Part shown: piece by piece, positions 2,948-25,783 of the stretch
How positions within the stretch are numbered: position 1 is the stretch's first letter
Layout of the letters: each line of letters opens with the position of its first letter
Source: a bacterium
GTDB taxonomy: Bacteria; Chloroflexota; Dormibacteria; Aeolococcales; Aeolococcaceae
Length of the DNA: 47,836 bases
Direction of reading: 5' to 3'
NCBI GenBank assembly: GCA_021803465.1
Contig: JAJZLL010000028.1
Location: 1 to 47,836, forward strand
Translations under genes and position numbers: made by a program
The notes under the pieces: model-generated
Told to the model about the DNA's origin: nothing
The model's database searches: none
Seen by the model: only the letters and a program-made list of their open reading frames with translations

Positions 2948-4072
2948 CTAAATGAGCGACCTGTACACTGCGATCGTCTGCTCGACAGTCCGTTCCCAGG
3001 TGAAGGTTCGCGCATGGGTGATTCCTTCTACCACATGGCTGGCACGGAGGGCAGGGGATTCCATGAGCTGGAGAATCTCCCGGGCCATGCCTCGGGTGTC
3101 GTACTGAGACGCCACAATGGCCACAGGGGCTGCGACTTCAGGAAGGGACGAGGTCGCAAAGACTGCGACAGGACTGCCGCTTGCAAGGGCTTCGAGGACG
3201 GGCAGCCCAAATCCTTCGTATTCGGAGGGAAAGACAACGCACGCGGTTCTGCTGTAGAGGGCACGGAGAAGTTCATCAGACACATGACCGAGGAGATGCG
3301 CATGCCCATCAAGTCCAGCATGGTGGATGGTCTCCACGACCCTGCGGTGAAAATTCCCCTGCTGGCCCACGATGACAAGGTCGCAGTCATATTCCTCCCG
3401 CACTGCGTTCGTCACCTGGCAGAGGAGGTCAATGCGCTTCCGTGGATCAAAGGTGCCTACAGCAAGGAGATAGGGACGGTCGAGGTGCAGCGGGGCCAGG
3501 ATGCGTTCCGCTTCAGCCTCGGGCAGCGGGTGGAACCGTGGAGACACGCCAAGCGGAATGACATGGATCCTTCCAGGATCGACACCAGCATGTTTCCGGA
3601 GATCTGCTGCAGTGGCCTCGCTGATGGAGATGAGGGCATCAGCCCGCTTCAGGAGCTGGAGTGCGAGAAGCCTCTCGCGCCGGAGCCAGGGGTACCACGC
3701 TGGATAGAGGAACGGGATGAGGTCGTACACGGTGACAATGACTGGGCAGGGTGCAGAAACGGGCTGGGCGTATTCGAGGCTGTGGTAGAGTGCAGGCCGC
3801 ACCTTTCCAAGAAGGCGTGTCATGAGAAACGGATCCGCAACTGGCTGAAGCCGCGCCTTCATTGTGGGAATGTGGACATCGAGAGGTGGAGCAAGTGCTG
3901 CATCCCCTTCCTCAAGATCTCCGTTGCGTGCTCCAAGGAGCAGGCGGATGTCGTCCCTGTACGTGGACTCGCCAAGTCCCCTGAGGAGCTCACGCGCGTA
4001 TGTTCCGATACCGCGATATCGGGATCCGCCCTGGAGCGGCCTTCCATCAAGGACGATGGGCTGCATGTGCAA
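2948..4072 (-). CDS. Glycosyltransferase family 4 (GT-B fold)
   Basis: This retaining glycosyltransferase is about 374 aa and probably adds a sugar from a nucleotide donor to a lipid-linked surface glycan. The N-terminal half shows the glycine-rich acceptor-side element GSRYRGIGTYARELL. The C-terminal GT4 domain has LAVGTFDPRKRIDLL and the EX7E motif in SEYEGFGLPVLEAL (Glu pair near the donor site). The family often transfers mannose, which suits the GDP-mannose enzyme next door, but the specificity is inferred. The start overlaps the end of the preceding GT gene by 26 bp, so the two are translationally linked; a Met two codons later is equally possible. Confidence 0.85.
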   Translation of the reverse strand: MHMQPIVLDGRPLQGGSRYRGIGTYARELLRGLGESTYRDDIRLLLGARNGDLEEGDAALAPPLDVHIPTMKARLQPVADPFLMTRLLGKVRPALYHSLEYAQPVSAPCPVIVTVYDLIPFLYPAWYPWLRRERLLALQLLKRADALISISEATAADLRKHAGVDPGRIHVIPLGVSPRFHPLPEAEAERILAPLHLDRPYLLAVGTFDPRKRIDLLCQVTNAVREEYDCDLVIVGQQGNFHRRVVETIHHAGLDGHAHLLGHVSDELLRALYSRTACVVFPSEYEGFGLPVLEALASGSPVAVFATSSLPEVAAPVAIVASQYDTRGMAREILQLMESPALRASHVVEGITHARTFTWERTVEQTIAVYRSLI

Positions 4073-5228
4073 CCTCCGTGAGGAGTGCGGAGACGTTTGC
4101 CACTACAGTATCCCATGCATACTCTGCTGCCACGTATCCCATTCCAGCAGCTCCGAGCTGTGCAGCCCCACGAGGATCGTTTAGGATGTGCAGTGCACCA
4201 TCCGCGAACTCTGCTAGAGTCGCAAACCTGATGCCTCCCTGGGAGCGGTCTATGTGTCCAGAGAGCACTGTGGACGCACTGTTGGCAAGAACGGGGCGGC
4301 CAAGGGACCACGCATCGAGCGCCATGAGCGAAAGTGATTCATGGGCTCCTGGAATGATCACTGCAGTGGCTCCAGCGATCGCATCAAGCCGATCCTGTTC
4401 GGAGAGATAGCCAAGGGGCGTCACTCCAAGTGCAATGGGAACGTTGCTGCTGTCACCAATGAGGACGAGGGACACATCTGCATGGGCTGAGCGCAGCTGC
4501 TCCATGCCAGCCATCATGAGCTCTATTCCCTTGCCTGGAGTTGTCCTTCCTCCGTAGAGAAAATAGGAACCAGCTATGTGGTGGCGTGAGCGGAACCGTT
4601 CGGGATCTGCTGGACGGGCAATGGTGACGCCAGTTGTGCCTGTGAGAGAGGGCGTGTACTGCGTGAGCGGATATGCTCCGTTCACCAGCGTCTTCTCCTC
4701 TCCTGTGTTGAAAAGCAGTCCATCTGCATGCTCGAAGAGCAGGGCTGTCCCTGGGAGATGGAAAGGCAGCTCATCGTGGGCGCAGGGAAGGAGGAGACGT
4801 GGTCCAGGATATGCAGCAAATCCTGCCACTGTTGTCCAGAAGAGATAGGGGACAAACACTGTCGGGACCGGTTCTGCAGTGCGAAGCGCATCAGCAAGCG
4901 TTGGAGCATAGGGTCCCTCATGCCGTAGCCACGAAGCTTCCCACTGGAGCATGCGGGGAAGCCTGAAGAAGATGCGTGACTCCAGTGCGAACCGGTGCGG
5001 ATGGCGGAGGCGCTCAACAGGAAATCTCGTTACTGTGAGGTTGGGCGAGTCCGAGCCTTCATCATTTGTTCCAGCCCATGTCGCCTCATCCTCAGCCCCA
5101 GTTGTCCAGATCTCGATCTTCCAGCCCCTTTCCGCAAGCTCCTCTGCAAGGAACCGCACAAGGGTCTCAGCTCCTCCGAGAATGGTGGAACCATACCGGG
5201 GAACGACAAAGCGGAGTGCAGGGGCCAT
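4047..5228 (-). CDS. Glycosyltransferase family 4 (GT-B fold)
   Basis: A 393-aa GT-B glycosyltransferase. The N-terminus has a GT4-like strand and glycine loop, FVVPRYGSTILGGAETLVRF. The C-terminal domain has the donor-side elements YFLYGGRTTPGKGIELM and VIIPGAHESLSLMALDAW, the latter in the position of EX7E with Glu and Asp at its ends. It starts 9 bp after the Wzt-like ATPase gene and overlaps the next GT gene by 26 bp, placing it in the export operon. The product is a likely assembly enzyme for the polymer the ABC exporter moves. Donor and linkage are not readable from sequence. Confidence 0.85.
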   Translation of the reverse strand: MAPALRFVVPRYGSTILGGAETLVRFLAEELAERGWKIEIWTTGAEDEATWAGTNDEGSDSPNLTVTRFPVERLRHPHRFALESRIFFRLPRMLQWEASWLRHEGPYAPTLADALRTAEPVPTVFVPYLFWTTVAGFAAYPGPRLLLPCAHDELPFHLPGTALLFEHADGLLFNTGEEKTLVNGAYPLTQYTPSLTGTTGVTIARPADPERFRSRHHIAGSYFLYGGRTTPGKGIELMMAGMEQLRSAHADVSLVLIGDSSNVPIALGVTPLGYLSEQDRLDAIAGATAVIIPGAHESLSLMALDAWSLGRPVLANSASTVLSGHIDRSQGGIRFATLAEFADGALHILNDPRGAAQLGAAGMGYVAAEYAWDTVVANVSALLTEVAHAAHRP

Positions 5229-6494: not shown

Positions 6495-7294
6495 AGGTGC
6501 TCTGCAAATTGGGAACTGAGCCTGGAGAAGACGAAGGCGCCCACCAGGATCGAGATGGCGACAAAGACATACGGCACAATGTACAGGCTTCCGAGGAGGT
6601 GGTTGAGAGGCTCGATGGACTGGGTGACGATGCTGTACCGGACATCCTCGATGACCTGAGTGATGGGATTGATCGCAATGATTGTCTGGGCAACATGGTT
6701 CGGGATGAAGGTGATCGGATAGACGACTGCGGATCCATAGAAGAGCAGCTGGGAGAACCATTCCCAGACATGGCCAACATCGCGGAACTGCACATAGAGT
6801 GCGGAGAGGAAGAGGGAGAGTCCAATGGCGAAGAGGTAGATCTCGAAGCAGAAGAACGGCACAAGGAGACTCTGCCACCCAGGATGGATCGTATGGAGAA
6901 ACATGCCAACAATGAGGACGAGGATCATGTTGATGACAAAGGTCATGAGCGAACTGATGGTCGTTGCAATGACAAGAATCCAGCGGGGGAAGTAGGTCTT
7001 CTGGACAAGGCTGCCGTTCGCCACAATGGCGTTCATTGTCTGTCCTGTCGTGTCTCCAAAGAAGTTCCAGATCACGATCGCCACAAGGAGCTGGAAGGGA
7101 AAGTCTGGAGTGCCCTTTCCCATGTGGAACATCTTCGCGAAGATGATGTACATCGTTGCGAAGATCATGAGCGGCTTGATGAGTGACCACATGTACCCGA
7201 GGATCGAGCCCGCATACTTGAGCTTGAACTGGGTGATCGAGAGCTCAAGTATGAGGTTGATGTTCCTCTTCGATTGCGTAAGGGCAGCAGTCAT
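6491..7294 (-). CDS. wzm: Polysaccharide ABC exporter permease, Wzm-type (ABC-2)
   Basis: A 267-aa integral membrane protein of the ABC-2 type. The LKYAGSILGYMWSLIKPL segment is the N-terminal amphipathic and interface region typical of Wzm, TagG and KpsM permeases. Six transmembrane helices follow, with a VQFRDVGHVW cytoplasmic loop and an INPITQVIEDVR element before the last helices. It is the first gene of the minus-strand glycan operon, and its stop codon overlaps the wzt start (ATGA). Together they should export the finished or lipid-linked glycan across the cytoplasmic membrane. No obvious Shine-Dalgarno precedes the ATG. Confidence 0.92.
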   Translation of the reverse strand: MTAALTQSKRNINLILELSITQFKLKYAGSILGYMWSLIKPLMIFATMYIIFAKMFHMGKGTPDFPFQLLVAIVIWNFFGDTTGQTMNAIVANGSLVQKTYFPRWILVIATTISSLMTFVINMILVLIVGMFLHTIHPGWQSLLVPFFCFEIYLFAIGLSLFLSALYVQFRDVGHVWEWFSQLLFYGSAVVYPITFIPNHVAQTIIAINPITQVIEDVRYSIVTQSIEPLNHLLGSLYIVPYVFVAISILVGAFVFSRLSSQFAEHL

Positions 7295-12961: not shown

Positions 12962-13666
12962 ATGGCCTGGTTCAAGAAAAGCAAAGACGCACCCGCTCCT
13001 CAAGAGGAGCCTGAGGAGGAACCCCAAATTCTCGTGATTGAGGGGGACCGTCCCTGCAGCGAGATTGGCTGTGCTGCCACAAATGGGGCTCCATGCTCGT
13101 ACAGGGATCGGCGTGGACATGCATGTCCCACTGCGTGGTGTCCTGAACATCAGGCTGTTGTGAACGGGCAGTGCTACTGCCGTCGCCATGCGAATACGCT
13201 CGATGCTGTCGGGACAGCGACAGAGCAGGGGTTTGGACTTCCTGATGTGACCAATCGCGTCCCCACACTTGTCCGCTGGATAGGACTCCATATAGACGAG
13301 TCGGTGCATCTCCTGCTCGAGTCACTCCGGCAGAAGCACGAGCGGTATTCGCGGATTGCTGTCCATCCTGTGAGAAAGGTCGATGGCAAGATCCGCTGGG
13401 AGACGACATGGCAGCTCTACGACCATACTGGTCCTGTCCTCAAGGTCATAGTCGAAGTCAACGAGACGGATCCGACTCTTGTCGTTGTGCGTGTGGGACA
13501 GCAGAGTGTCTACAGCGAGATTCCTCCGTGGATCATGCACCGTGAACGGCATGAGGATGTCGATCCCGAGATCGATGCCCGTGAACGGGAAGTGTTCTAC
13601 CACTACATGCTCGAGGCTGTCTACAGCGAGGTCATGGCGCAGCGCAGTGAGCAGCAGCCCCTGTAG
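12962..13666 (+). CDS. Novel zinc-site protein, copy 1 (paralogue at 37415-38056)
   Basis: A 234-aa protein I do not recognise. An acidic, proline-rich N-terminus (residues 9-21) is followed by a Cys/His module: C32-x4-C37-x7-C45-x9-C55-x4-C60-x2-H63-x9-C73-x2-H76. Eight ligands suggest two zinc sites, a little like a cross-brace (B-box or RING-style) finger. The rest is mixed: LPDVTNRVPTLVRWI, then a TTWQLYDHTGP strand region, then PPWIMHRERHED and a helical tail, EREVFYHYMLEAVYSEV. The same spacing and the tail recur in a second gene 24 kb away. It is cytoplasmic (no signal). The context (asparaginase upstream, GGDEF protein downstream) gives no clear role. Confidence 0.75.
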   Translation: MAWFKKSKDAPAPQEEPEEEPQILVIEGDRPCSEIGCAATNGAPCSYRDRRGHACPTAWCPEHQAVVNGQCYCRRHANTLDAVGTATEQGFGLPDVTNRVPTLVRWIGLHIDESVHLLLESLRQKHERYSRIAVHPVRKVDGKIRWETTWQLYDHTGPVLKVIVEVNETDPTLVVVRVGQQSVYSEIPPWIMHRERHEDVDPEIDAREREVFYHYMLEAVYSEVMAQRSEQQPL

Positions 13667-14915: not shown

Positions 14916-16148
14916 TCATGGACCACTCGCAATCGTGACTGTCCACGTGGAGGTGTAGGTTCCAGCATAGGCGTCGCCTGGGACTGCAACAGCAATATTC
15001 AGCACGATGGATGCTGGACCCTCTCCTGTAGCTGACTGTGCGTTGAACACGCTCACTGCAGGGGGAGGAGTTGCGCCAGCAGGAACAGTTATGGGATAGG
15101 TGTCGGAGTTCGTGGGAAGTGAGCAGTAGCCTGCTGTTGGGGAGGCGGAGCTGACGCCAGTCACTGTTGCTGCAGTTGAGGGGAGAGCATGCCCAGCCCC
15201 ATCAGTGAGCGGAGAGGATGTAAGACTCATTTTCCAGCCAGCACCTGTGCCTGATTCATCATCGGGAACGAATGACATCTGCGCAGTGGCGTTCTGGGTA
15301 CTGCCATTCAATGTGATGGAAGAGAACGCTGTGGACCCAGGATTCGTGAGGCTCAAGCTTCCTCCAGCGCACACCATCGTTACCTTCTCAATGAGCGTCT
15401 GGTCATACGATGAGGCTGCAGTGTATTTGCCAGCAGTCATGCAGAAGGATGTCGACATGCAGGATATGGCGGACAGGTCATTGTTCTGTGTCGGCGATGT
15501 GTTCTGCACAGTGCCTGACAGCCAGTTTGAGACCGACCACTCTTCCACGAGCGTCTGGTCCCCACCCGCAGCAGCATAATCGCCTGCTGCAACACAGAAG
15601 GTGGTGGAAGAGCAGCTCACGCTTGCGAGCACGTTGTTGGCTGAGCTGCTTGCATCGATAGTGGTCTGCACACTCCATGAGCTGCCGTTCCATGCCTCTG
15701 CAAGTGTCTGCTCATACCCACTGACTGTGGCATACCCGACTGCCTCGCATGAGGCTGCTGCTGCGCACGACACGGATGAGAGGACGTTCGTCTGGCCAGT
15801 TCCGACATTCGGACTTCCCACGATGGACCATGCAGTCCCATTCCACTCCTCAGTAAGTGTCTGCTCCACAGTGCCATTGTTGTATGAGCCAACTGCGATG
15901 CACTGGCTGCCACTCGTGCAGCTTACCCCGTAAAGATCATTGTTCTCTGTTGAGCTCGTGTTGGGGCTTGGGAGAATGCTCCAGCTTCCACCGCTGTACT
16001 CCTCGATGAGTGTCTGGTCATAGGTGCCAGTATTGGCGTATCCCACTGCGAAGCATTGAGATGCACTCAGGCAGCTCACGCTTTCCAGCTCGTTGTTGTA
16101 GGACGTGTTCTGGTCGGGTGAGTTGAGCCAATCCAGGACTGAACCGTT
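14916..16148 (-). pseudogene. Cys-pair repeat surface protein, 3' part after an in-frame amber stop
   Basis: This stretch continues, in the same frame, the gene at 16149-17663; only the TAG at 16149-16151 separates them. It supplies the end of repeat 9 and repeats 10-14 of the pattern L-x2-VSC-x5-C-x-AVG followed by W-N-G-x2-W. A C-terminal domain of about 150 residues then follows, with VPDDESGTGAGWKMSLTSSP and TYTSTWTVTIASGP. It is reminiscent of WxL-type cell-wall-binding domains. If translation ends at the amber codon this anchoring part is lost. A GTG at 16079 could restart translation, but it is simply the Val of a repeat and lacks a signal peptide. Confidence 0.75.
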
Positions 16149-17663
16149 CTAGTACGCAGTGAATGTCTGTTTGGCCGATGTGGAGAGGTAGCGGTGGCCT
16201 ACAACGAAACAGAAGCTCGCAGTCGGGCAGCTTACGGAGAGCAGTGCAGTGCTGTACCCTGTCCAGAATACTGATGTCCCAGGATCGTACAGGCTCCATG
16301 TGGAGCCATTCCATAGTTGCGCTGTTGGTGCATTCCAGTTGTACTGGGAGTCGTTGCCAACGGACAGGCAGAATGAGGTGCTTGCACAACTGACACTCTT
16401 CAGGTCATTTGATACGGTGAGGGGCGAAGTTGCTGCTGCATCGAGGCTCCAGCTTGTTCCATTCCACTGCACTGCGAGGGGAGCGCTCGAATACGCATAT
16501 TCGACATTCGGATAGTACTCTCCTACAGCCATGCAGAAGCTTGCGCCTGTGCAGCTTATGCCAGCGAGGATGTTTTCATCGGATGTTGGCGACTGTGCTG
16601 GAACAGTGTCTGTGGACCAGGAAGTGCCATTCCACGTGGCGACATTGGGCGCGGGATAGCTGGAGTTGCTTCCAGTGGTGCCCGCCACCTTGCAGAGGGA
16701 GGCGCTTGCGCAGCTTACTGAAGCAAGGTAGTCGTTGGCAGTACCAGGACTCGTTGCTGCGAGGTTTGTCCATGTGGCGCCATTCCATGATTCAGCGAGA
16801 TTGAACACGTTCGTACTCTGGTAGTTTCCAGCAGCAACGCAGTACGTTGCACTGGTGCAGGACACACCACCGAGAGTCTGGTAGGTGCTGGGGTTGCTTG
16901 GATACGAGAGTGTCCATGATGATCCACTCCAGATGAGAGCGAGGGTGTCAGTGTTGGATGCGTTGAGGTAGCTCCCTGCTGCCATACAGAACGATGACGT
17001 TGTGCAGGCAACTGCCCTGAGGCTGTTGGCTGCACTTGTTCCAGCATCCGGGGTAGCCACAATTGTCCAGCTTGTGCCACCCCACTGCTCAACGAGATTC
17101 TGGCTGTATGAAGAGGGAGCGAAATATCCTGCAGCAATGCAGAACGTAGTCGCTGTGCAGCTCACTCCTTTCAGCTCATTGCTCTGCGTTGCGCTTGAAT
17201 TGGCAGATGCAACGATGGACCATGCAGTCCCATTCCACTGCTCGATGAGGGTCTGGTTGACAGTCCCAGTGTAGTAGTACCCTACAGCGACGCAGAAGCT
17301 CGTTCCTGTGCAGCTTACTGACTCCAGAACACTGGTGTTCGCAGTGCTGGGACTTGGCACGGTGGTGAGTGACCATGCAGTGCCATTCCAGTCCTGGGCA
17401 TCCGGCTGAGTGATGCCCGTCTGGGTCTTGAACCCGCCAACTGTCATGCAGAAGGTGCTACCGACGCAGGAAATCCCATTGGGAGTGTCATTGATCTGCT
17501 TGGCGTTGGATGATGCGACAATGGCTCCCTGAAGCGTTCCTGCATCCACTGGGACAGCCTGGAGCACAGCAGAGCCGAGCAGTGATGCTGTCAGCAGCAG
17601 GGCAGTACTCCACTGCAAGAAGCGCAATCGCATTGGGGTCAACAGGTGGACATGCATGTCCAT
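16149..17663 (-). CDS. Cys-pair repeat (beta-propeller-like) secreted protein, 5' part ending at amber codon
   Basis: 504 aa read before TAG. The N-terminus has a Sec signal peptide (LRFLQWSTALLLTASLLGSAVLQA), so the product is exported. Nine repeats of about 50 residues follow; each carries a Cys pair (SC...FC, probably a disulfide), a small AVG/AAG turn and a W-N-G-x2-W element. Counting the part beyond the stop there are 14 repeats, fitting two seven-bladed propellers. The amber replaces a Trp of the WNG motif, a one-base change from TGG. The start is uncertain: Met at 17663, or a Met 10 codons later, which would leave the palindrome at 17647-17662 in the leader. The ligand is unknown. Confidence 0.75.
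   Translation of the reverse strand: MDMHVHLLTPMRLRFLQWSTALLLTASLLGSAVLQAVPVDAGTLQGAIVASSNAKQINDTPNGISCVGSTFCMTVGGFKTQTGITQPDAQDWNGTAWSLTTVPSPSTANTSVLESVSCTGTSFCVAVGYYYTGTVNQTLIEQWNGTAWSIVASANSSATQSNELKGVSCTATTFCIAAGYFAPSSYSQNLVEQWGGTSWTIVATPDAGTSAANSLRAVACTTSSFCMAAGSYLNASNTDTLALIWSGSSWTLSYPSNPSTYQTLGGVSCTSATYCVAAGNYQSTNVFNLAESWNGATWTNLAATSPGTANDYLASVSCASASLCKVAGTTGSNSSYPAPNVATWNGTSWSTDTVPAQSPTSDENILAGISCTGASFCMAVGEYYPNVEYAYSSAPLAVQWNGTSWSLDAAATSPLTVSNDLKSVSCASTSFCLSVGNDSQYNWNAPTAQLWNGSTWSLYDPGTSVFWTGYSTALLSVSCPTASFCFVVGHRYLSTSAKQTFTAY
17647..17662. promoter_or_regulatory. 16-bp perfect palindrome at the 5' end of the repeat-protein gene
   Basis: TGGACATGCATGTCCA is fully self-complementary and lies at the proposed start of the surface-protein gene. 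If translation starts at 17633 it would be in the 5' leader, where an operator could sit. Its 14-bp core also occurs at 13115-13128 inside another gene, so a codon-driven coincidence is possible. Confidence 0.3.
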
Positions 17664-17834: not shown

Positions 17835-17907
17835 GCCGAGGTAGCTCAGTTGGTAGAGCACAGGTCTGAAAAACCTGGTGTCGACAGTTCGATCCTGTCC
17901 CTCGGCA
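17835..17907 (+). tRNA. tRNA-Phe (anticodon GAA)
   Basis: An intact cloverleaf: acceptor GCCGAGG/CCTCGGC, D-arm GCTCAGTTGGTAGAGC, anticodon stem CAGGT/ACCTG with loop CTGAAAA (anticodon GAA), T-arm with GTTCGATCC, and discriminator A at 17907. CCA is not encoded (CAC follows), unlike the tRNA-Val gene. Its 3' half is the left attachment site of an integrated element. Confidence 0.95.
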
Positions 17908-17914
17908 CACTCGA
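17867..17914 (+). repeat. attL: left 48-bp direct repeat overlapping tRNA-Phe 3' half
   Basis: Identical over 48 bp to 22987-23034, from the anticodon loop to 7 bp past the tRNA end. The base before the repeat and the base after it differ between copies. A tRNA 3'-half duplication is the classic footprint of tyrosine-recombinase integration. Confidence 0.9.
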
Positions 17915-17923
17915 ATGCTGGTC

Positions 17924-18372
17924 ATGGACTCCCGGAATCCGCGAACTGACTACGAGAGTGACGACGTGCGAGACAGACAATCCTGGACGAAGCCAGAGAA
18001 ACTGTCAGACGAGGAACGCTCCAGATTGACTGAGAAGTTCTTCTCGCTGAAGACTTCATCAGGAAGGTCCAGGATTTTGGACGTCCTGGAGGAAGACTGT
18101 CATCCACAAGCGATCGCACTGGCTATCAAGAAACTGCAGAGTCAGGATCCGATCGAGCGGGTGGCTGCCTGTGAACTTCTCTACCAGCCCGGCGCACAGG
18201 AGGGGCTTCCCTATTGGCGGGAAACTCTCCGGGCCATCACGGAGCTTCTGGAGCAGGAGCAGGAAGCCGTTGTGCTCAATGCCTGCATGCAGGTGATTGG
18301 TAGCCTTGCAATGGAATACACGGAAGAGGAACTAGAACGGGCGCTGCTGTCCAGGATGGACATCTGGCTCAG
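17924..18372 (+). pseudogene. HEAT-repeat protein, 5' fragment (split by IS3 element)
   Basis: The fragment encodes about 150 residues before the insertion sequence. It starts just after attL; an ATG at 17915 is an alternative start. After a charged N-terminus come paired amphipathic helices typical of HEAT or PBS-lyase repeats, for example HPQAIALAIKKLQSQDPIERVAACELLY. In the current sequence translation runs on into the IS and stops at 18406. Removing the IS and one target copy joins this frame directly to 19650-20166, giving one protein of about 321 aa. HEAT solenoids bind proteins or act as scaffolds; the partner is unknown. Confidence 0.85.
18370..18372. repeat. Left 3-bp target-site duplication of the IS (CAG)
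   Basis: CAG directly precedes the IS left end and recurs directly after its right end at 19647-19649. Three-base duplications are usual for IS3-family elements. Confidence 0.8.
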
Positions 18373-18438
18373 TGAGGTGGACCCCGGAAACTGGACAGAA
18401 GGCTAAGCTTTCATCAATGAACGAAAAGGAGTTCAAAG

Positions 18439-18744
18439 ATGAAAGGAAAGCGGAACAAATACAAGCCGGAGTTCAAGGCTGAGGTTGCCATGGAGGCCCT
18501 CAAGGGAGACTTGACTACTGCTGAGCTTGCACAGCGGTACAAGATCCACCCAGCCATGGTGACGCAGTGGAAGAAGCAGCTTGTCGAGCATGCGCGTGTC
18601 GCCTTTGAGAAGGGTTCACAGAGTGATGAGGAAGCTGTTGATGTGGATGCGTTGTACAAGAAGATTGGTCAGCTCGAAGTGGAGCGGGATTTTTTAGCAA
18701 GCAGGCCCGGTCTCATGGATCTCATCAAGAAAGGAAAGCGATGA
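18439..18744 (+). CDS. IS3-family transposase OrfA (helix-turn-helix)
   Basis: 101 aa. The N-terminus KRNKYKPEFKAEVAMEAL with TTAELAQRYKIHPAMVTQWKKQL is the HTH_Tnp_1 DNA-binding fold that recognises IS ends. A coiled-coil or leucine-zipper stretch follows (DVDALYKKIGQLEVERDFL), used for multimerisation. A T6 run at 18691-18696 lies near the end, but no frameshift is needed because orfB has its own ATG overlapping the stop codon. Confidence 0.93.
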   Translation: MKGKRNKYKPEFKAEVAMEALKGDLTTAELAQRYKIHPAMVTQWKKQLVEHARVAFEKGSQSDEEAVDVDALYKKIGQLEVERDFLASRPGLMDLIKKGKR

Positions 18745-19571
18745 TAGACCGTGGCCATGACGACCTTTCTGTGCAGCGTCAGTGTGAGCTGCTGGGCCTC
18801 TGCAGAGCCACGCTGTATTACCATCCCGTTGAGCCAGCACCGCCAACCGTGGACTTCTTTCGTGTTGTGGATGAGGTGTACCTGAAGTTTCCCTTCATGG
18901 GAAGCCGGCAGATCACATCGACCCTCAGGGGAATGGGGTATGGAGTCAATCGCAAACGGATCCAGCGGATGATGCGGATCATGGGCTACGTTTCCCTGGC
19001 TCCCGGTCCCCATACCAGCAGGAAGCATCCCACCCATCAGGTCTACCCATACCTGCTTCGTGACCTCACTGTGGAGCGGTCCAACCAGGTGTGGTGTGCG
19101 GACATTACCTACATTCCCATGGCAAAAGGATTCCAGTACCTCGTCGCAATCCAGGACTGGCACTCGCGCAAGATCCTGTCCTGGAGGGTGTCCAACACCA
19201 TGGACACGGACTTCTGCGTGAGTGCACTGAAGGAGGCGCTTGCCAAGTATGGACACCCAGACATCTTCAACACCGACCAGGGTGCCCAGTTCACTGCAGA
19301 CGCATGGGTGTCCGTCCTCAAGGACAACGGCATTGCCATCAGCATGGATGGCCGTGGTCGGGCGCTCGACAATGTCTTCATCGAACGGTTCTGGCGCACC
19401 GTGAAGTATGAATACCTCTATTTGCACCCTGCCGAGAACGGCTCGGAGTTCAAGAAGGGGCTCAGTGAATACATCCAGTGGTATAACCAGCAGCGGCGGC
19501 ATTCCTCACTTGGAGAAGCCACTCCAGACAGGATCTACCAGGAGGGCAGGCCTATTCCCAACGTCGCGTAA
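18741..19571 (+). CDS. IS3-family transposase OrfB (DDE integrase core)
   Basis: 276 aa. After an HTH_21-like segment (KFPFMGSRQITSTLRGMGYGVNRKRIQRMMR) comes the rve integrase core. The catalytic triad is intact: Asp in QVWCADITYIPM, Asp in FNTDQGAQFT, and Glu in NVFIERFWRTVKYE, with typical D-D-35-E spacing. The end WYNQQRRHSSLGEATPDRIY is standard for the family. It overlaps orfA by 4 bp. Nothing suggests decay, so the element may still move. Confidence 0.94.
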   Translation: MIDRGHDDLSVQRQCELLGLCRATLYYHPVEPAPPTVDFFRVVDEVYLKFPFMGSRQITSTLRGMGYGVNRKRIQRMMRIMGYVSLAPGPHTSRKHPTHQVYPYLLRDLTVERSNQVWCADITYIPMAKGFQYLVAIQDWHSRKILSWRVSNTMDTDFCVSALKEALAKYGHPDIFNTDQGAQFTADAWVSVLKDNGIAISMDGRGRALDNVFIERFWRTVKYEYLYLHPAENGSEFKKGLSEYIQWYNQQRRHSSLGEATPDRIYQEGRPIPNVA

Positions 19572-19633
19572 TCGTCATGTTCGGTACAATGCAGGATGAA
19601 AGCTTAGCTGCCCCCAATTCCAGTCCAACCGAA

Positions 19634-19649
19634 GGGGTCCACCTCACAG
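19634..19649. repeat. Right terminal inverted repeat and right target duplication of the IS
   Basis: GGGGTCCACCTCA (19634-19646) is the exact complement of the left end. CAG (19647-19649) repeats the left flank. The HEAT-repeat frame resumes at the next base. Confidence 0.8.
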
Positions 19650-20166
19650 GATGGCCCGGCATCCATGGTGGCAGGTGCGAAAAGAGACTGCCATGGCACT
19701 TCCACATATGGCGGAGGAATCAGCGGCTGCAAAGGGTGCTTTGTTCGCGCTCACGAGGGACAGGTCGAAGCACGTGCGGGACTTCGCGACATTCGCGCTC
19801 GGCATGATCTCGGATCTCGATGATGCAACAGTGAGAGCAGTGCTCAGCGAACGACTCGCTGACTCCCATGCGGATGCGCGCTGGGGAGGAGTCGCTGGGC
19901 TTGCCAGAAGGCATGACATGCGTGTCCGCAACACCATTCTCGAGGGGCTGAATGAGGGATTCCCGGATATCGAGCTCGTTTCCATCAAGGCCATTCTGGA
20001 GACTGTTCCTGGCTACGATGATCAGGATCTTATGGATGCGATGGTCATATTGGCCAAGAGGTGGGATGAGGAGCCACCGTACAACTTCTGTGGCATCGAT
20101 CGCGTTCTTCACGATGCTGGTGTGGAGATCGACTGGATCGTACTCGAGCAGGATGCCTTCTCGTAG
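19650..20166 (+). pseudogene. HEAT-repeat protein, 3' fragment (split by IS3 element)
   Basis: About 171 residues continue the HEAT solenoid. Repeats include HPWWQVRKETAMALPHMAEES, HVRDFATFALGMISDLDD and HADARWGGVAGLARRHD, each with the Arg/Asp pattern of HEAT_2 repeats. An ATG at 19651 might allow internal initiation, but no clear ribosome site precedes it. The frame joins that of 17924-18372 exactly once the IS is removed. The end (EEPPYNFCGIDRVLHDAGVEIDWI) is less repetitive and may be a capping region. Confidence 0.85.
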
Positions 20167-20181
20167 GCATTCAAGCACCAA

Positions 20182-20565
20182 CTACGATCCGTGTGGCTCG
20201 TGCGACAGTGCCTGATCTATTGACTGAGCTGCCATCCGCTGCATCTCCTCATTGACATGCGAATACAGATCCAGTGTTATCGAAACGGTCGAGTGGCCGA
20301 GAATCTCGGAGACTACCTTTGGACTCGTGCCGAGCTCCATCATCAGCGTTGCTGCCGAATGCCTGAGGTCGTGAAACCTGATGCGGGGGAGTCCAGCTCT
20401 AGCGAGTAGCGGGAGAAACGAACGCCTCAACAGGTTGCCAGGTTCAATATGATTGCCGACAGCATTGCTGAACACGAGGTTGTTGTCATTCCAGCAGTTG
20501 GCTGCAGTGCTCCGCTCCACATCATTATCGCGATTCCCCTGCGAGATAGGCGGGAACGCCTGAGG
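20182..20565 (-). pseudogene. int: Tyrosine recombinase (integrase), C-terminal remnant
   Basis: The open frame covers about the last third of a phage or ICE-type integrase. It shows the NLVFSNAVGNHIEPGNLLRR entry strand and the catalytic box HDLRHSAATLMMELG (His-x-x-Arg). ILGHSTVSITLDLYSHV supplies the second His and the nucleophile Tyr. The first catalytic Arg, the core-binding domain and the N-terminal arm-binding domain are absent; upstream there is a stop codon and unrelated sequence. A GTG at 20518-20520 could start a 112-aa product, but it would be inactive. It is probably what is left of the enzyme that placed the island in tRNA-Phe. Confidence 0.85.
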
Positions 20566-20721
20566 AATTCGTCACACTAGCTGCTCACCTAATGGAGATT
20601 GAATGCGCCCTCATTACGGGAAGCGACTTCAGGGTGGACAGTGGTGTCGCTGCCTTCTACCATATTGGCGAATTCGCTACCCAACTACATTCAGTAGAAT
20701 ACCTCCAGAGGAGATATCGAC

Positions 20722-21126
20722 ATGGAAATTTCACGCGAAGCCCCGACCACGAAGGGCCCTGAAGAGACTTTTACGGGCGAGGTATGGCTTGATCCCATCA
20801 CTAGGGGTCTGCCCACATCACAACTGAACGTCGCTGTCGTCCGCTTTTCGCCGGGCGCTCGCAGCGCCTGGCATTCCCACGACGGCGGGCAGACTCTTTA
20901 CGTGATGGAAGGCCGTGGTTTCGTCCAGGCACGAGGTCAGGACATCGTCGATCTGAATCCAGGCGATGTCATCTTTGCACCCGACGGTGAGGAGCATTGG
21001 CACGGAGCGCGACCGGACCACTTCATGACGCATATCTCTATCACGGAGGGCTCCCCGCACTGGGGTGAGCACGTCAGCGACTCCGAATACCTGGAACCGT
21101 CACGCTCCGGTTCTCGGAATTCGTAG
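20722..21126 (+). CDS. Cupin-domain protein, hydroxynitrile-lyase/GtHNL-like
   Basis: A 134-aa single-domain cupin. Metal-site motif 1 is SAWHSHDGGQTLYVMEGRG (His, His, Gln/Glu positions) and motif 2 is PGDVIFAPDGEEHWHGA (final His). The order KGPEETFTGEVWLDP, PGARSAWH and MTHISITEG matches the small Mn- or Fe-dependent cupins annotated as carboxymuconolactone-associated or (R)-hydroxynitrile lyases. The actual substrate is unknown. An AGGAGA lies about 8 bp before the ATG. It is a passenger gene on the tRNA-Phe island. Confidence 0.85.
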   Translation: MEISREAPTTKGPEETFTGEVWLDPITRGLPTSQLNVAVVRFSPGARSAWHSHDGGQTLYVMEGRGFVQARGQDIVDLNPGDVIFAPDGEEHWHGARPDHFMTHISITEGSPHWGEHVSDSEYLEPSRSGSRNS

Positions 21127-21200
21127 AGGTCCAGAAGTATTGAGAAGAGTCAACGAGGCTGACTATCGAGAAAGCTGTCAGAGATCGGAGCAGCGTGGGG

Positions 21201-21488
21201 ATGGTCACTCTGCTGATGCGTAAACGGTCCGAACTGCTGAATGCATCGCTGATGATGATTTGTGTGAGTGTGCTCCTCGGGCTTCTCATTCCGAATACGC
21301 GAGGCGGTTTGTTGAGCTTCGCTCTCATATGGATCGTGCTTTTCGTGCTTTACAGTGTGGTGACTAAATGGCGCTCGCGTACCCAGCGTTTGTTCTGGAT
21401 ATGGCTGATCGAATATTGCGCGTTACTCGTTGTGGGAATAGTGGTCTACGGAGTGACGTCTCTGTTGCGCGGTGGAACATTGAAGTAG
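21201..21488 (+). CDS. Small membrane protein on the island, unknown function
   Basis: 95 aa with three hydrophobic segments (about residues 14-31, 36-53 and 65-86) and basic stretches between them (RKRSE, KWRSRTQR), as in a small polytopic membrane protein. GGAG lies 10 bp before the chosen ATG; a GTG two codons earlier is an alternative. No family is recognised. Confidence 0.55.
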   Translation: MVTLLMRKRSELLNASLMMICVSVLLGLLIPNTRGGLLSFALIWIVLFVLYSVVTKWRSRTQRLFWIWLIEYCALLVVGIVVYGVTSLLRGGTLK

Positions 21489-21738
21489 TGGCAAAACGGA
21501 ATGCCGATGCCATTAGCAGCCACTATGAGTTTCTGCCGTCAAGGATGGACGTTGAGATAAGACCTCATCTCGAGACACTGACACAATGCTCGCACCTGAA
21601 TCATGCCGGAATATATCGCATGCGATTTCTTGTTTAGCTCATCATGAAACGAACTGCATGCGTTCCAAATGCCATCACTTGATACGATAGTCAAGAGTTC
21701 GGATTTCACCAGTACAACTTTTAGGCAACAGACAGCAG

Positions 21739-22314
21739 ATGAAGACCTACGTGATGATTGGAGCCGCCATCTTGGCAGGCATACTTTTGTCTGCGTGTGG
21801 ATCCGCGGCTGCTAAGGCAAGGCAAGCTGGGCCCGCAACTCCGACATCCACTATTGAATCGGCGCCTCTTTGTAGTGCTTCATCACCCAGTGGCTCCTAC
21901 TGTGAAACCCAAGCTCAATTGTCTGCTCATACGCAATTTGTTCATATGGCGACCGTGCCAGACAGCGTGTTTCTGGCCCAGGGCGACGAGTTGCTAGCGC
22001 CGAATGGAACACCGGCCGTCTCAAGGACTGCCGCATCCAATGCAGCGATCCACAAAATCGCCCAGCACTGGCCATTAGCCAAAGCAAAAGAGATTGTGTT
22101 GGCAGATAGCGTGAAGACTGGTGGATTGTCCAAGACAGGGTCACTACAGTGGGTCGTGAGTTTGACGCTTCCTTCGGGAATCACTCTTCCAGCAGTTCCC
22201 GCCAATGTTCCAGCCAACCATGCTGGAGTCGGTCAGCTGTCCCACACATACATAATTGTGTGGGTGAACGCGACGACCGGAGCCGTTGACGGGGTCGTAT
22301 CGATACAGGAATGA
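21739..22314 (+). CDS. Putative lipoprotein, unknown function
   Basis: 191 aa. The N-terminus MKTYVMIGAAILAGILLSACG is a lipoprotein signal peptide with lipobox LSAC (Cys20), followed by a Ser/Ala/Pro-rich linker. The body has two further Cys (in APLCSAS and GSYCETQ) and a short C-terminal module, SLQWVVSLTLP and HTYIIVWVNATTGAVDG, that resembles the end of PepSY-like or similar small extracytoplasmic domains. Its function is unknown. A 250-bp AT-rich stretch (21489-21738) without a gene precedes it and probably holds its promoter. It is an island passenger. Confidence 0.7.
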   Translation: MKTYVMIGAAILAGILLSACGSAAAKARQAGPATPTSTIESAPLCSASSPSGSYCETQAQLSAHTQFVHMATVPDSVFLAQGDELLAPNGTPAVSRTAASNAAIHKIAQHWPLAKAKEIVLADSVKTGGLSKTGSLQWVVSLTLPSGITLPAVPANVPANHAGVGQLSHTYIIVWVNATTGAVDGVVSIQE

Positions 22315-22396
22315 ACCGAGTTATTGTAGATATTCCCTTCTGCTGCTATAGAGGGGCAACTGACTTCTTCAGCCTTTGAACTAAGATTGTCGCGCT

Positions 22397-22636
22397 ATGG
22401 CAAGTTCTGTGAATCCATTGGTGTCTTGGGCGAGTTCGGCTCTCCTGGCTTTCGCTGCCATCTGCGTATCTATCTACTCTGTAGCCTGTCCTGAGAAGAT
22501 GGCTTCCTGGCAGAATCGTCAAAATCGTAAGATGGGTCTCCCTGAGTGGAATACTTGGCGAGGTGCGCGAGTTGGTGGAGTGATACTGTTCGTTTTCTGG
22601 TTTGCAGTGTTGGTGCTTTGTGTGTGGCCGAAGTAG
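22397..22636 (+). CDS. Small two-helix membrane protein, unknown function
   Basis: 79 aa with hydrophobic helices at about residues 12-32 and 58-77. The basic loop between them (QNRQNRKMGLPEWNTWRGAR) suggests a hairpin with a cytoplasmic loop. Its composition is credible for a real small protein, but there is no strong ribosome site and no recognised family. Confidence 0.5.
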   Translation: MASSVNPLVSWASSALLAFAAICVSIYSVACPEKMASWQNRQNRKMGLPEWNTWRGARVGGVILFVFWFAVLVLCVWPK

Positions 22637-23283
22637 CAAGACTCCACGGATAGTGGGATTCACGCGTGAATTATGGCCAAGCTGTCAGCATTCAGGTTGA
22701 GTAGCATTGATACCTGTCAACTTGATGGTTTCCTGCACAATTCATTCCATAACGGAGTCGCACTAATGTGAAGACCATTCCAATATGTACGTGCAGATCG
22801 GCGAGTATGGTCATTCAGCACTTGGAAGCAGGCTGGTGTGAGCGAAGGGTGCTCAAAGTGACTACTCGTTTGACTACTGGAGTGGACGGCCACGAGAGAC
22901 AACAGGAACCTGTTCCACAACCTTGGTGGCTGGTTAGTAGGAGGCATGATCGCCTATAGACACCGGAGTCCATCTAATGAACGGTTTGAAAAACCTGGTG
23001 TCGACAGTTCGATCCTGTCCCTCGGCACACTCGATTGTGGTGTGGATTGTTGCCCACAGAGCCCTATGCTTGCGGGAGAGTTGCACGGCGAACTCGCATT
23101 CTCGATTCCACGATTCTTCGCAGCTATTCAAGACAGCATTGTGCTATATGACTTGGACTTCGGGGAAGGTGTTCTTGCCCTTTCCTGTTGTGAAGGTGCA
23201 TGCGGTACCGATGAGCCACTAAGGTGTTGCTCACAAACTGAATTGGGCGTGCATGGTCCGTCAACGCTGTTCAGTATTGAGTC
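22637..23283. other. Gene-poor right end of the island, with palindrome and attR
   Basis: No convincing gene is seen in these 647 bp. They hold a 14-bp perfect palindrome (ATTCACGCGTGAAT, 22658-22671) and attR (22987-23034). Short reading frames crossing the region have composition unlike real proteins. Confidence 0.55.
22987..23034 (+). repeat. attR: right 48-bp copy of the tRNA-Phe 3' half
   Basis: Exact copy of 17867-17914. The 5' half of a tRNA is absent here, so this is the displaced host 3' end left by integration, not a functional tRNA. Confidence 0.9.
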
Positions 23284-24351
23284 ATGATGTTCCGCAAAGC
23301 ATTGAACCCGACAGAGTCGGAGACGCCACCGCAGCTTCTCCTGGAGAGGGTGTCAGTACGGGCTGCTCAGGCACAGGAATATGTGACCCAGCTCATAGAG
23401 GAAGCGCGTAAGGGTGATCTGGTTGATGGCTACAAGTCAGCTGGGGATGCTGCGAAGTTCAGGCAGAAGGCACTCGAGACTGTTGTCCCCTACATGGCAC
23501 AAAGATTGGGGGGGCTCCTTGCTGACAACTACCGATTCAGTGCTTCTCCAGTGAGGAACTACACAGCAGTGCGCTTGGGTGGAGAGCACAGGGCTGGACT
23601 TGCATTGGAGTCTGTGTACGACTGCAGCTGCAGACCTGACATTGACAAGGAGACGAATCCACAGACGGTTGGAATCGTGCAAAAAACGGGATATTGCACA
23701 CCATTGCATCATGGAATGAGACTGAAGTCGGGATCAGAGTCCATACAGCAGGAATTCTTTGATCTTATTCCAGACATCATCCAGTCATTGCCAGAACAGC
23801 TGCAGCAGGATGCGGATCCAGCCATTCTTGAACAGGCGACCACGCTGCTTGTGCAATTCTCCTCCTCTGCTGAGGAGCTTGAGCGCATTCAAAAGAAATA
23901 CCTCAGCCATTCCCCACACGGACTGAGCCATGAGGATCTCGAGATGCTCAACATGTATCAGGTTGCAAGTGGCAAGCGCATCGACCCGATATCGTGGCTT
24001 GCTTTGGTGAACCTCGCTGAACAGAGAATGGTCAACCAGGCAGCACTTGAGGATGCAGCAAACGTGCTCATCAACGTAGTGAAGACAGTTGCTCCCGGGA
24101 AATCGACAAAAGTGGACAAGGTTTTCTACGCAGTGGATAAGAATGTCCGTGGTGATTACGAGCTCTTCCGCACGGCGGACAAGTGGAGCACACCCTATGC
24201 GATCAATCCTTATCGAAGCGCGTTCAGCACGTTGAGGGAGCTTGTGGGAAATGCGCAGGCGATATGTACTGCATTTGGGCTCAGGGATGTGAGCCTCTCT
24301 GGTGGCAAAGCTGTACCACGACTGGAGGAACAGCTGAGCATGGGCAAGTGA
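23284..24351 (+). CDS. Uncharacterised 355-aa protein
   Basis: I do not recognise this protein. It is soluble-looking, with no signal peptide or membrane helix. The N-terminal third is helical and charged; residues about 110-145 contain a small Cys/His patch (DCSCRPD, GYCTPLHHG) that could bind metal. Helical stretches rich in Leu and Gln follow, and the Lys-rich end is VAPGKSTKVDKVFYAVDKNVRG. It starts 250 bp to the right of attR, thus outside the island. It is convergent with a TPR-protein gene, with a perfect hairpin between them. Confidence 0.65.
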   Translation: MMFRKALNPTESETPPQLLLERVSVRAAQAQEYVTQLIEEARKGDLVDGYKSAGDAAKFRQKALETVVPYMAQRLGGLLADNYRFSASPVRNYTAVRLGGEHRAGLALESVYDCSCRPDIDKETNPQTVGIVQKTGYCTPLHHGMRLKSGSESIQQEFFDLIPDIIQSLPEQLQQDADPAILEQATTLLVQFSSSAEELERIQKKYLSHSPHGLSHEDLEMLNMYQVASGKRIDPISWLALVNLAEQRMVNQAALEDAANVLINVVKTVAPGKSTKVDKVFYAVDKNVRGDYELFRTADKWSTPYAINPYRSAFSTLRELVGNAQAICTAFGLRDVSLSGGKAVPRLEEQLSMGK

Positions 24352-24666
24352 GTGACTGCTGAACAGGTTTGACGACGTTCTCACGCGACGCTCAGCGAGC
24401 TTTGCTGCTGCTGGATGGGTCAAGACCCATCCAGCAGCAGCAAAGCTGTCAGCTACAGTCCTCAATTCCGAGTACGCATGCTCCCATGGGGTGTGCGCAT
24501 GCCACAGCTCCAATCTCGCATCCTGGCGGAAAGAATGAGTGCAATGCGGAGCTTCTCAGCAATCATTTCTGTGCTGAAGTCCGTGTTCTGCATGGCGTGT
24601 GGTGCATCTCCCCTCGCCATGCGGCTATGTGGTCAGGCATGCAAGCGGGGGAGTTCAGCTGGTCTG
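24352..24666. other. Intergenic stretch between convergent genes
   Basis: No gene is supported. The only clear element is the long perfect hairpin at 24398-24447. Confidence 0.6.
24398..24447. terminator. Perfect 23-bp hairpin, probable bidirectional terminator
   Basis: Arms at 24398-24420 and 24425-24447 are exact complements with a 4-nt CAAG loop; the arms begin AGCTTTGCTGC. It lies 46 bp past the stop of the plus-strand gene and about 220 bp past the stop of the minus-strand gene. No T-run follows on either side. Confidence 0.65.
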
Positions 24667-25620
24667 TTACGCAGGTTCATTGAGCATGAATCCACCTGGG
24701 GCTGGAACGTTTCCCGAAGCAATCTCTGCGCGCACTCGCTCGATGGTGGAGCGGTTCGTCCACGAATGAACATTCATTGCAAGGAGTTCATCGCAGCAGC
24801 TGAGGGCCTCACTGAAACGTCCCTGCGAAGCATACCACCATGCCTTCTGCAGTCTGGCGTTGCACCTCATAATCTGTCGTTCAATGGCTATAGCCGCCTC
24901 AAATGAGGTTTCCGCATCCGTGCTGCGCCCAAGCCTGTCGTACACCATGCCACGGTTGATGAGCACAAAGCAGCGATCGAGAGGCTGAATCGGGGCATCA
25001 GACAGAATCTTCTCAATGGTGGAGAGGGCAAGTTCCGCCTGACCGCTTTCAAATTGCTGGCCGAACACCTGCAACTGCTGGTGGTATTCCTCGATGGTCA
25101 TGCCCATCGCTTCTGGGGTGTTGCGTTCTGTCGGTTGGAGATGGGAATCACTCCGCTGCAGTGGTGGAGAAGCGGATACTGCAGATTGCACACTTGATGA
25201 TGGGTATGTGCCGGCAGTGCTGTCACTGGCAATGGCACTTTTGAGTTCCTCAAGTTCGTTTCGTGTGACTGCATCGAAGATGTGGAGCGCAAGGATTTCA
25301 TCACACGTTGCAAGGGCTTCCTCGTATCGCTGTTGTGACCTGAGTCGCTGAATCTTCCGTATGCGCGCATTTGTGCGGAGCAGGGGGATCTCCAGCGCGA
25401 TTGCTTCTTCAAGCGCCCTCTCCGCGTCCTGAGGGAGACCCTTGCTGTCGAGGACAGTTGCACGGTTGATCAGCATGAAGCACCGGTCAATCGGCTGGAG
25501 TTGATCTGAGGCTAGCAGCTTGTCCACCAGTGACAGACTCTCATCAAATCTGCTCTCGCTGACAAGGTGCGCGATGCGTGTGACAGTTGAGACATATTCA
25601 TGGTGTGTCAGGGGTGGCAT
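24667..25620 (-). CDS. TPR-repeat protein with internal duplication
   Basis: 317 aa built from two similar halves joined by a Ser/Pro-rich linker (about residues 135-170). Each half contains a helix pair with PIDRCFMLINRATV (first) or PLDRCFVLINRGMV (second), then an AERALEEAIALE or AETSFEAAIAIE helix, then ARIRKIQRLRSQQRYEEALATCDEILAL or its counterpart ARLQKAWWYASQGRFSEALSCCDELLAM. These are tetratricopeptide-type helices, so the protein probably scaffolds other proteins. It is cytoplasmic. The Met start has a well-spaced GGAG-like element upstream (GGAGCC). The partner is unknown. Confidence 0.75.
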   Translation of the reverse strand: MPPLTHHEYVSTVTRIAHLVSESRFDESLSLVDKLLASDQLQPIDRCFMLINRATVLDSKGLPQDAERALEEAIALEIPLLRTNARIRKIQRLRSQQRYEEALATCDEILALHIFDAVTRNELEELKSAIASDSTAGTYPSSSVQSAVSASPPLQRSDSHLQPTERNTPEAMGMTIEEYHQQLQVFGQQFESGQAELALSTIEKILSDAPIQPLDRCFVLINRGMVYDRLGRSTDAETSFEAAIAIERQIMRCNARLQKAWWYASQGRFSEALSCCDELLAMNVHSWTNRSTIERVRAEIASGNVPAPGGFMLNEPA

Positions 25621-25783
25621 GGTGGCTCCTCATGTGTGCATCACGTGCATGGTACCCTGCGTCCCAGACTCTGCGCACGCTAATTGGAAGCTATGTGCTT
25701 CCAAACCCCACTGGCTTTCGCAGTACGATGTCAGTGATTGCGTGAGGAGTGCATCGCGCATATGTCATAAGGGGGATGGAATC

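Follow-up and report, generated by a model that had tools for sequence, protein, structure and literature searches.

A probable decayed integrative genomic island at tRNA-Phe in a Dormibacterota genome

The window, a stretch of 47,836 nucleotides that is one entire contig (G000:C10) of a 2.03-Mb draft genome in 73 contigs, very probably carries a decayed integrative genomic island in its tRNA-Phe gene, 5.1 kb in size and of a known kind. The locus puts tRNA-Phe on record as a hotspot of repeated integration in the candidate phylum Dormibacterota, whose mobile elements are little described and which none of the surveyed papers on genomic islands, tRNA and integrases names. It also shows clearly what an island looks like once its integrase is lost; it is of an ordinary, known kind and would leave ideas on how such islands work unchanged.

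The tRNA-Phe (GAA) gene, called by ARAGORN at 17835–17908 on the plus strand, is the one complete tRNA-Phe gene in G000 and is identical over 75 bp to that of G001, the only other genome of the same genus that was searched (95.2% over 104 bp). The 48 bp at 17867–17914 (attL-type, plus strand), which start in the anticodon loop just before the anticodon and end 6 bp beyond the gene, recur at 22987–23034 (attR-type, plus strand) with 48/48 identity. This exact recurrence had been reported in the initial annotation, which placed the end of the repeat 7 bp past the tRNA. Within the window nothing else matches at three or fewer mismatches, against 0.00 matches expected from 100 shuffles, and beyond the two copies the whole G000 genome holds only weaker matches, which fall in further tRNA-like sequences and at the end of an IS. 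The mismatches described just outside the repeat are real, but similarity carries on past them (53/55 over 17863–17917; 95% over 60 bp). On the right only a 3′ fragment of the gene is present, downstream of the intact gene and in the same orientation; ARAGORN did not call it as a tRNA, and short ORFs overlap it.

A displaced 3′ fragment downstream of an intact tRNA gene, in the same orientation, is the signature by which islands in tRNA genes are mapped, and Islander-type islands carry a tyrosine integrase in the interval, span 2–200 kb and include a class whose attachment site is centred on the anticodon (PMC4383910). The segment resembles these islands in pairing a full tRNA gene with a displaced fragment on the same replicon and in the same orientation, in having an integrase ORF between the two, in its anticodon-centred site and in its length, which falls within the 2–200 kb range, and the fragment is not a complete tRNA gene. 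It differs from them in that the integrase is represented by a C-terminal remnant only and in that an insertion sequence interrupts the island. Among the island ORFs there were no conjugative or mobilizable genes (relaxase, coupling protein, secretion or Rep) and no phage structural, lysis or replication genes, PHROGs matches being confined to the integrase.

We propose integration through recombination by a tyrosine integrase at a 48-bp core common to the attP of the element and the 3′ half of tRNA-Phe. The element's own copy would have completed the tRNA-Phe gene at the left end, thereby regenerating it, and the original 3′ half would have been pushed 5.1 kb rightward. Since G000 holds a single complete tRNA-Phe gene, the genome probably has no other copy than the restored one, as far as an incomplete assembly can show. 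Later, the N-terminal two thirds of the integrase would have been lost and an IS3-family element would have landed in a HEAT-repeat gene, and after this decay the island would no longer have been able to excise itself; what remains would be a hydroxynitrile-lyase-type cupin, a genus-specific lipoprotein and two small membrane proteins. We infer that the integrase whose remnant is present made this insertion and that the decay events took place in this order.

The truncated tyrosine integrase noticed in the initial annotation is a C-terminal remnant on the minus strand at 20182–20568 (ORF 20182–20520, with homology extending to 20568). It matches Phage_integrase (PF00589, 1e-13) over positions 92–171 of 172 only, matches phrog_1 (3e-23), and aligns to residues 249–371 of the 377-aa G030 integrase. 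RFHDLRH, the GHS region and the tyrosine are retained; the N-terminal, core-binding and first-arginine parts are gone, and no N-terminal remains were found in other frames upstream of 20568. Since the first-arginine region is missing, the integrase should be inactive, and with the N-terminal two thirds lost the island should probably be unable to move itself, the complete tyrosine recombinase catalytic domain of a self-mobile island being absent.

Relatives of this integrase sit at many tRNA genes, and of the 47 with a tRNA no more than 1.5 kb away, 41 are convergent with that tRNA, facing its 3′ end, as is the remnant. The remnant is 2.3 kb from tRNA-Phe (about 1.0 kb with the IS discounted), compared with about 0.1 kb for most relatives. 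Its closest homologue of known context, the G030:C83 integrase (JAKAXE010000110, YP5.bin5; 61% identity over 106 aa), is likewise at tRNA-Phe and convergent with it, and a homologue in G040 (58%) is also at tRNA-Phe. Unlike the remnant, the G030 protein is full length, and it adjoins a 404-aa ORF without a Pfam match; no cargo in common was detected between its element and the island. Assigning the remnant to a tRNA-Phe clade from trees was tried and not retained: it grouped weakly with tRNA-Phe types in a tree of 33 sequences (84/74), and its placement among tRNA types did not resolve with 82 sequences. Elsewhere in G000, on contig C8 (L061), a 401-aa tyrosine integrase at 4005–5207 lies 491 bp from a tRNA-Pro (TGG) gene, with no tRNA repeat detected at that locus.

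The IS element that had been recognised inside the segment belongs to the IS3 family and occupies 18378–19647 on the plus strand. Its orfA (18439–18744) and orfB (18741–19571), both on the plus strand and both intact, overlap and carry HTH_Tnp_1, rve and rve_3 domains as in the IS3 family, but its exact ends are putative and the AGG at 18375–18377 and 19648–19650 is a candidate 3-bp target duplication only. Partial copies of both ends of this IS occur in G000:C8, and G001:C199 carries a copy of it (79%). At about 7030–7290 of G000:C8 (L061), a rearranged fragment contains both ends of the same IS3-type element.

Where the initial annotation listed a single HEAT protein, two ORFs lie one on each side of the IS. 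The left (17915–18377, plus strand; PRK09687-like) matches NF007244 weakly over positions 19–118 of 285 (E 0.006), has a HEAT_2 match below the cut-off and continues into IS sequence to 18406. The right (19648–20166, plus strand; ORF called from 19651) matches positions 144–244 of 285 (E 9e-19) and HEAT_2 (1e-7), and both ORFs score below the NF007244 family cut-off. As they match consecutive parts of one model, they are most simply, and most likely, the halves of one gene split by the IS.

The cargo of the island is mostly uncharacterised and consists of ordinary passenger genes. The cupin reported earlier, at 20722–21126 (plus strand), belongs to the (R)-mandelonitrile lyase (hydroxynitrile lyase) family, scoring 152.9 bits against NF049940 (NCBIfam; cut-off 140). 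It matches the PDB entries 4bif, 4uxa and 8oz8 (E 2e-26 to 5e-28), the first of which is a manganese hydroxynitrile lyase; of the genomes searched, G010 holds the nearest relative of the island cupin (65%). A 97-aa small membrane protein (21195–21488, plus strand) has a distant homologue in G001:C63 that adjoins a paralogue of the lipoprotein, and a second small membrane protein, of 79 aa (22397–22636, plus strand), has no homologue in 40 relatives.

The lipoprotein (21739–22314, plus strand) belongs to a dispersed, genus-restricted family: G000 has 10 matches, counting the protein itself, G001 has six, and 39 other relatives have none. The loci of this lipoprotein or secreted-protein family are L115–L129. 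The paralogues are scattered, mostly without the other island genes, and the lipoprotein looks native to the genus. It has no Pfam match or solved homologue, and its model (pLDDT 76) consists of a helix followed by a four-stranded sheet. Because its fold matches, which include YpeB (the best, E 0.24), YpmB and another lipoprotein, are none of them below E 0.2, a PepSY-like (PepSY/cystatin-like) C-terminal domain is only a suggestion from the model. We consider it improbable that the lipoprotein and a small membrane protein make up a surface module specific to the genus, with PepSY-like proteins scattered through the genome, and that this module is spread partly by tRNA-targeting islands.

Comparison with the sister species G001 indicates that the site has been used by more than one element. 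The left flank matches up to tRNA-Phe, including the gene at window position 12962 (97%) and a GGDEF gene (82.6%), and in G001 the GGDEF gene and tRNA-Phe are followed by a different, full-length tyrosine recombinase of 329 aa. This G001:C179 recombinase occupies the same chromosomal site as the island, but it resembles the island integrase at only 27% over 66 residues (E 0.017) and, unlike it, lies on the same strand as the tRNA; no island cargo was seen on the short contig. The two species thus hold different elements at the tRNA-Phe site, which makes it a hotspot. The HEAT gene, the cupin and the 79-aa membrane protein are absent from G001. The initial annotation had pointed to relatives in which tRNA-Phe would lead straight into the sequence from 23035: none was seen, G001 bearing the other recombinase and also lacking 23035–25772. 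Nor did we see any relative with the genes of 17915–22986 at this position and no second 48-bp copy. Two ORFs for repetitive secreted proteins (SVSC-type repeats) lie between the GGDEF gene and tRNA-Phe at window positions 14916–17663, and these genes are missing between GGDEF and tRNA-Phe in G001.

On the right, homology to G001 does not restart before 25773; the matching flank is on a separate G001 contig of 4.9 kb, next to an ArdC-type anti-restriction fragment and without a tRNA-Phe fragment. The 2.7 kb at 23035–25772, which encode a 355-aa protein and a TPR protein, are absent from G001 at the DNA level, so the species-variable segment is larger than the island bounded by the 48-bp repeats; the 355-aa protein has no family matches and a 25% relative in G000:C30.

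A further reading, which would refine rather than exclude a decayed island, is that the 5-kb segment forms one layer within a bigger region built up by accretion, reaching from tRNA-Phe to about 25772 and made of the remains of two or more elements, with the integrase remnant possibly belonging to an element older than the att repeats. We regard this as a real, if lesser, possibility. It would accommodate the absence of 23035–25772 from G001, where the ArdC-type fragment borders the same chromosomal gene, as well as the unusual distance of the remnant from the tRNA and the existence, in genus g6, of genomes with several tRNA-Phe 3′ halves and a shared arm; however, there is no third tRNA-Phe fragment in the window and no integrase or Rep gene was found in 23035–25772.

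Counted against the decayed island itself are the missing empty site, the distance of the remnant from the tRNA, its weak grouping with tRNA-Phe types in trees, the G+C content (54.0%, only slightly below the 56.7–57.7% of the surroundings) and the native look of the lipoprotein. The small difference in composition, the lipoprotein family and the 73-contig draft state of the assembly would also fit a right-hand copy produced by stray duplication of part of tRNA-Phe or by faulty assembly, with chromosomal genes in between. The exactness of the 48 bp, the geometry of the displaced fragment, the integrase remnant inside, the three genes missing in G001 and the different recombinase at its tRNA-Phe make such an origin highly unlikely. 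Just as unlikely is a selected defence or fitness module relying on cooperation between the HEAT protein, the lipoprotein and the membrane proteins: homologues of a small membrane protein and the lipoprotein are neighbours in G001:C63, but the HEAT gene is disrupted and the lipoprotein paralogues mostly stand apart from the other genes. The initial annotation had read the segment as a degenerate tRNA-Phe island with perhaps a defence or fitness cargo. Its island is borne out by the att repeats, fragment geometry, integrase remnant, G001 recombinase and absence in relatives; its defence cargo is not, as PADLOC returned only weak, generic HEAT matches (E 0.0045) rather than a known defence family, and PHROGs only the integrase.

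Across the order, no copy of the decayed island, full-length or second, was found in 50 genomes; island DNA had no match in phage records, and the 41-bp 3′ half of tRNA-Phe had no exact match in viral contigs. A tyrosine recombinase or its remnant, of at least three types, lies near tRNA-Phe at 10 of the 23 loci that have over 1 kb of sequence downstream, among them C-terminal remnants in G036, G035 and G027. Copies of the repeat scattered without an element, which had been named as evidence against an island, were not seen in G000. The nearest case is in genus g6 of the same family, where 3′ halves of tRNA-Phe occur without the full tRNA at several places per genome (L025, L026, L027, L028 and L071; G023, G019 and G015), matching 39–43 of 43 bp. 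Upstream of these halves runs a conserved arm of up to ~130 bp, downstream the sequence diverges, and no neighbouring integrase was found. Their arrangement suggests right ends or attachment sites of another element family, possibly element ends or islands in tandem. In a different family, G028 carries at L064 a near-copy of the tRNA-Phe 3′ half (45/50) 8.7 kb downstream of tRNA-Phe, together with an ORF of 452 aa whose call begins within the end of the tRNA-Phe gene, and this locus is likely a second tRNA-Phe island.
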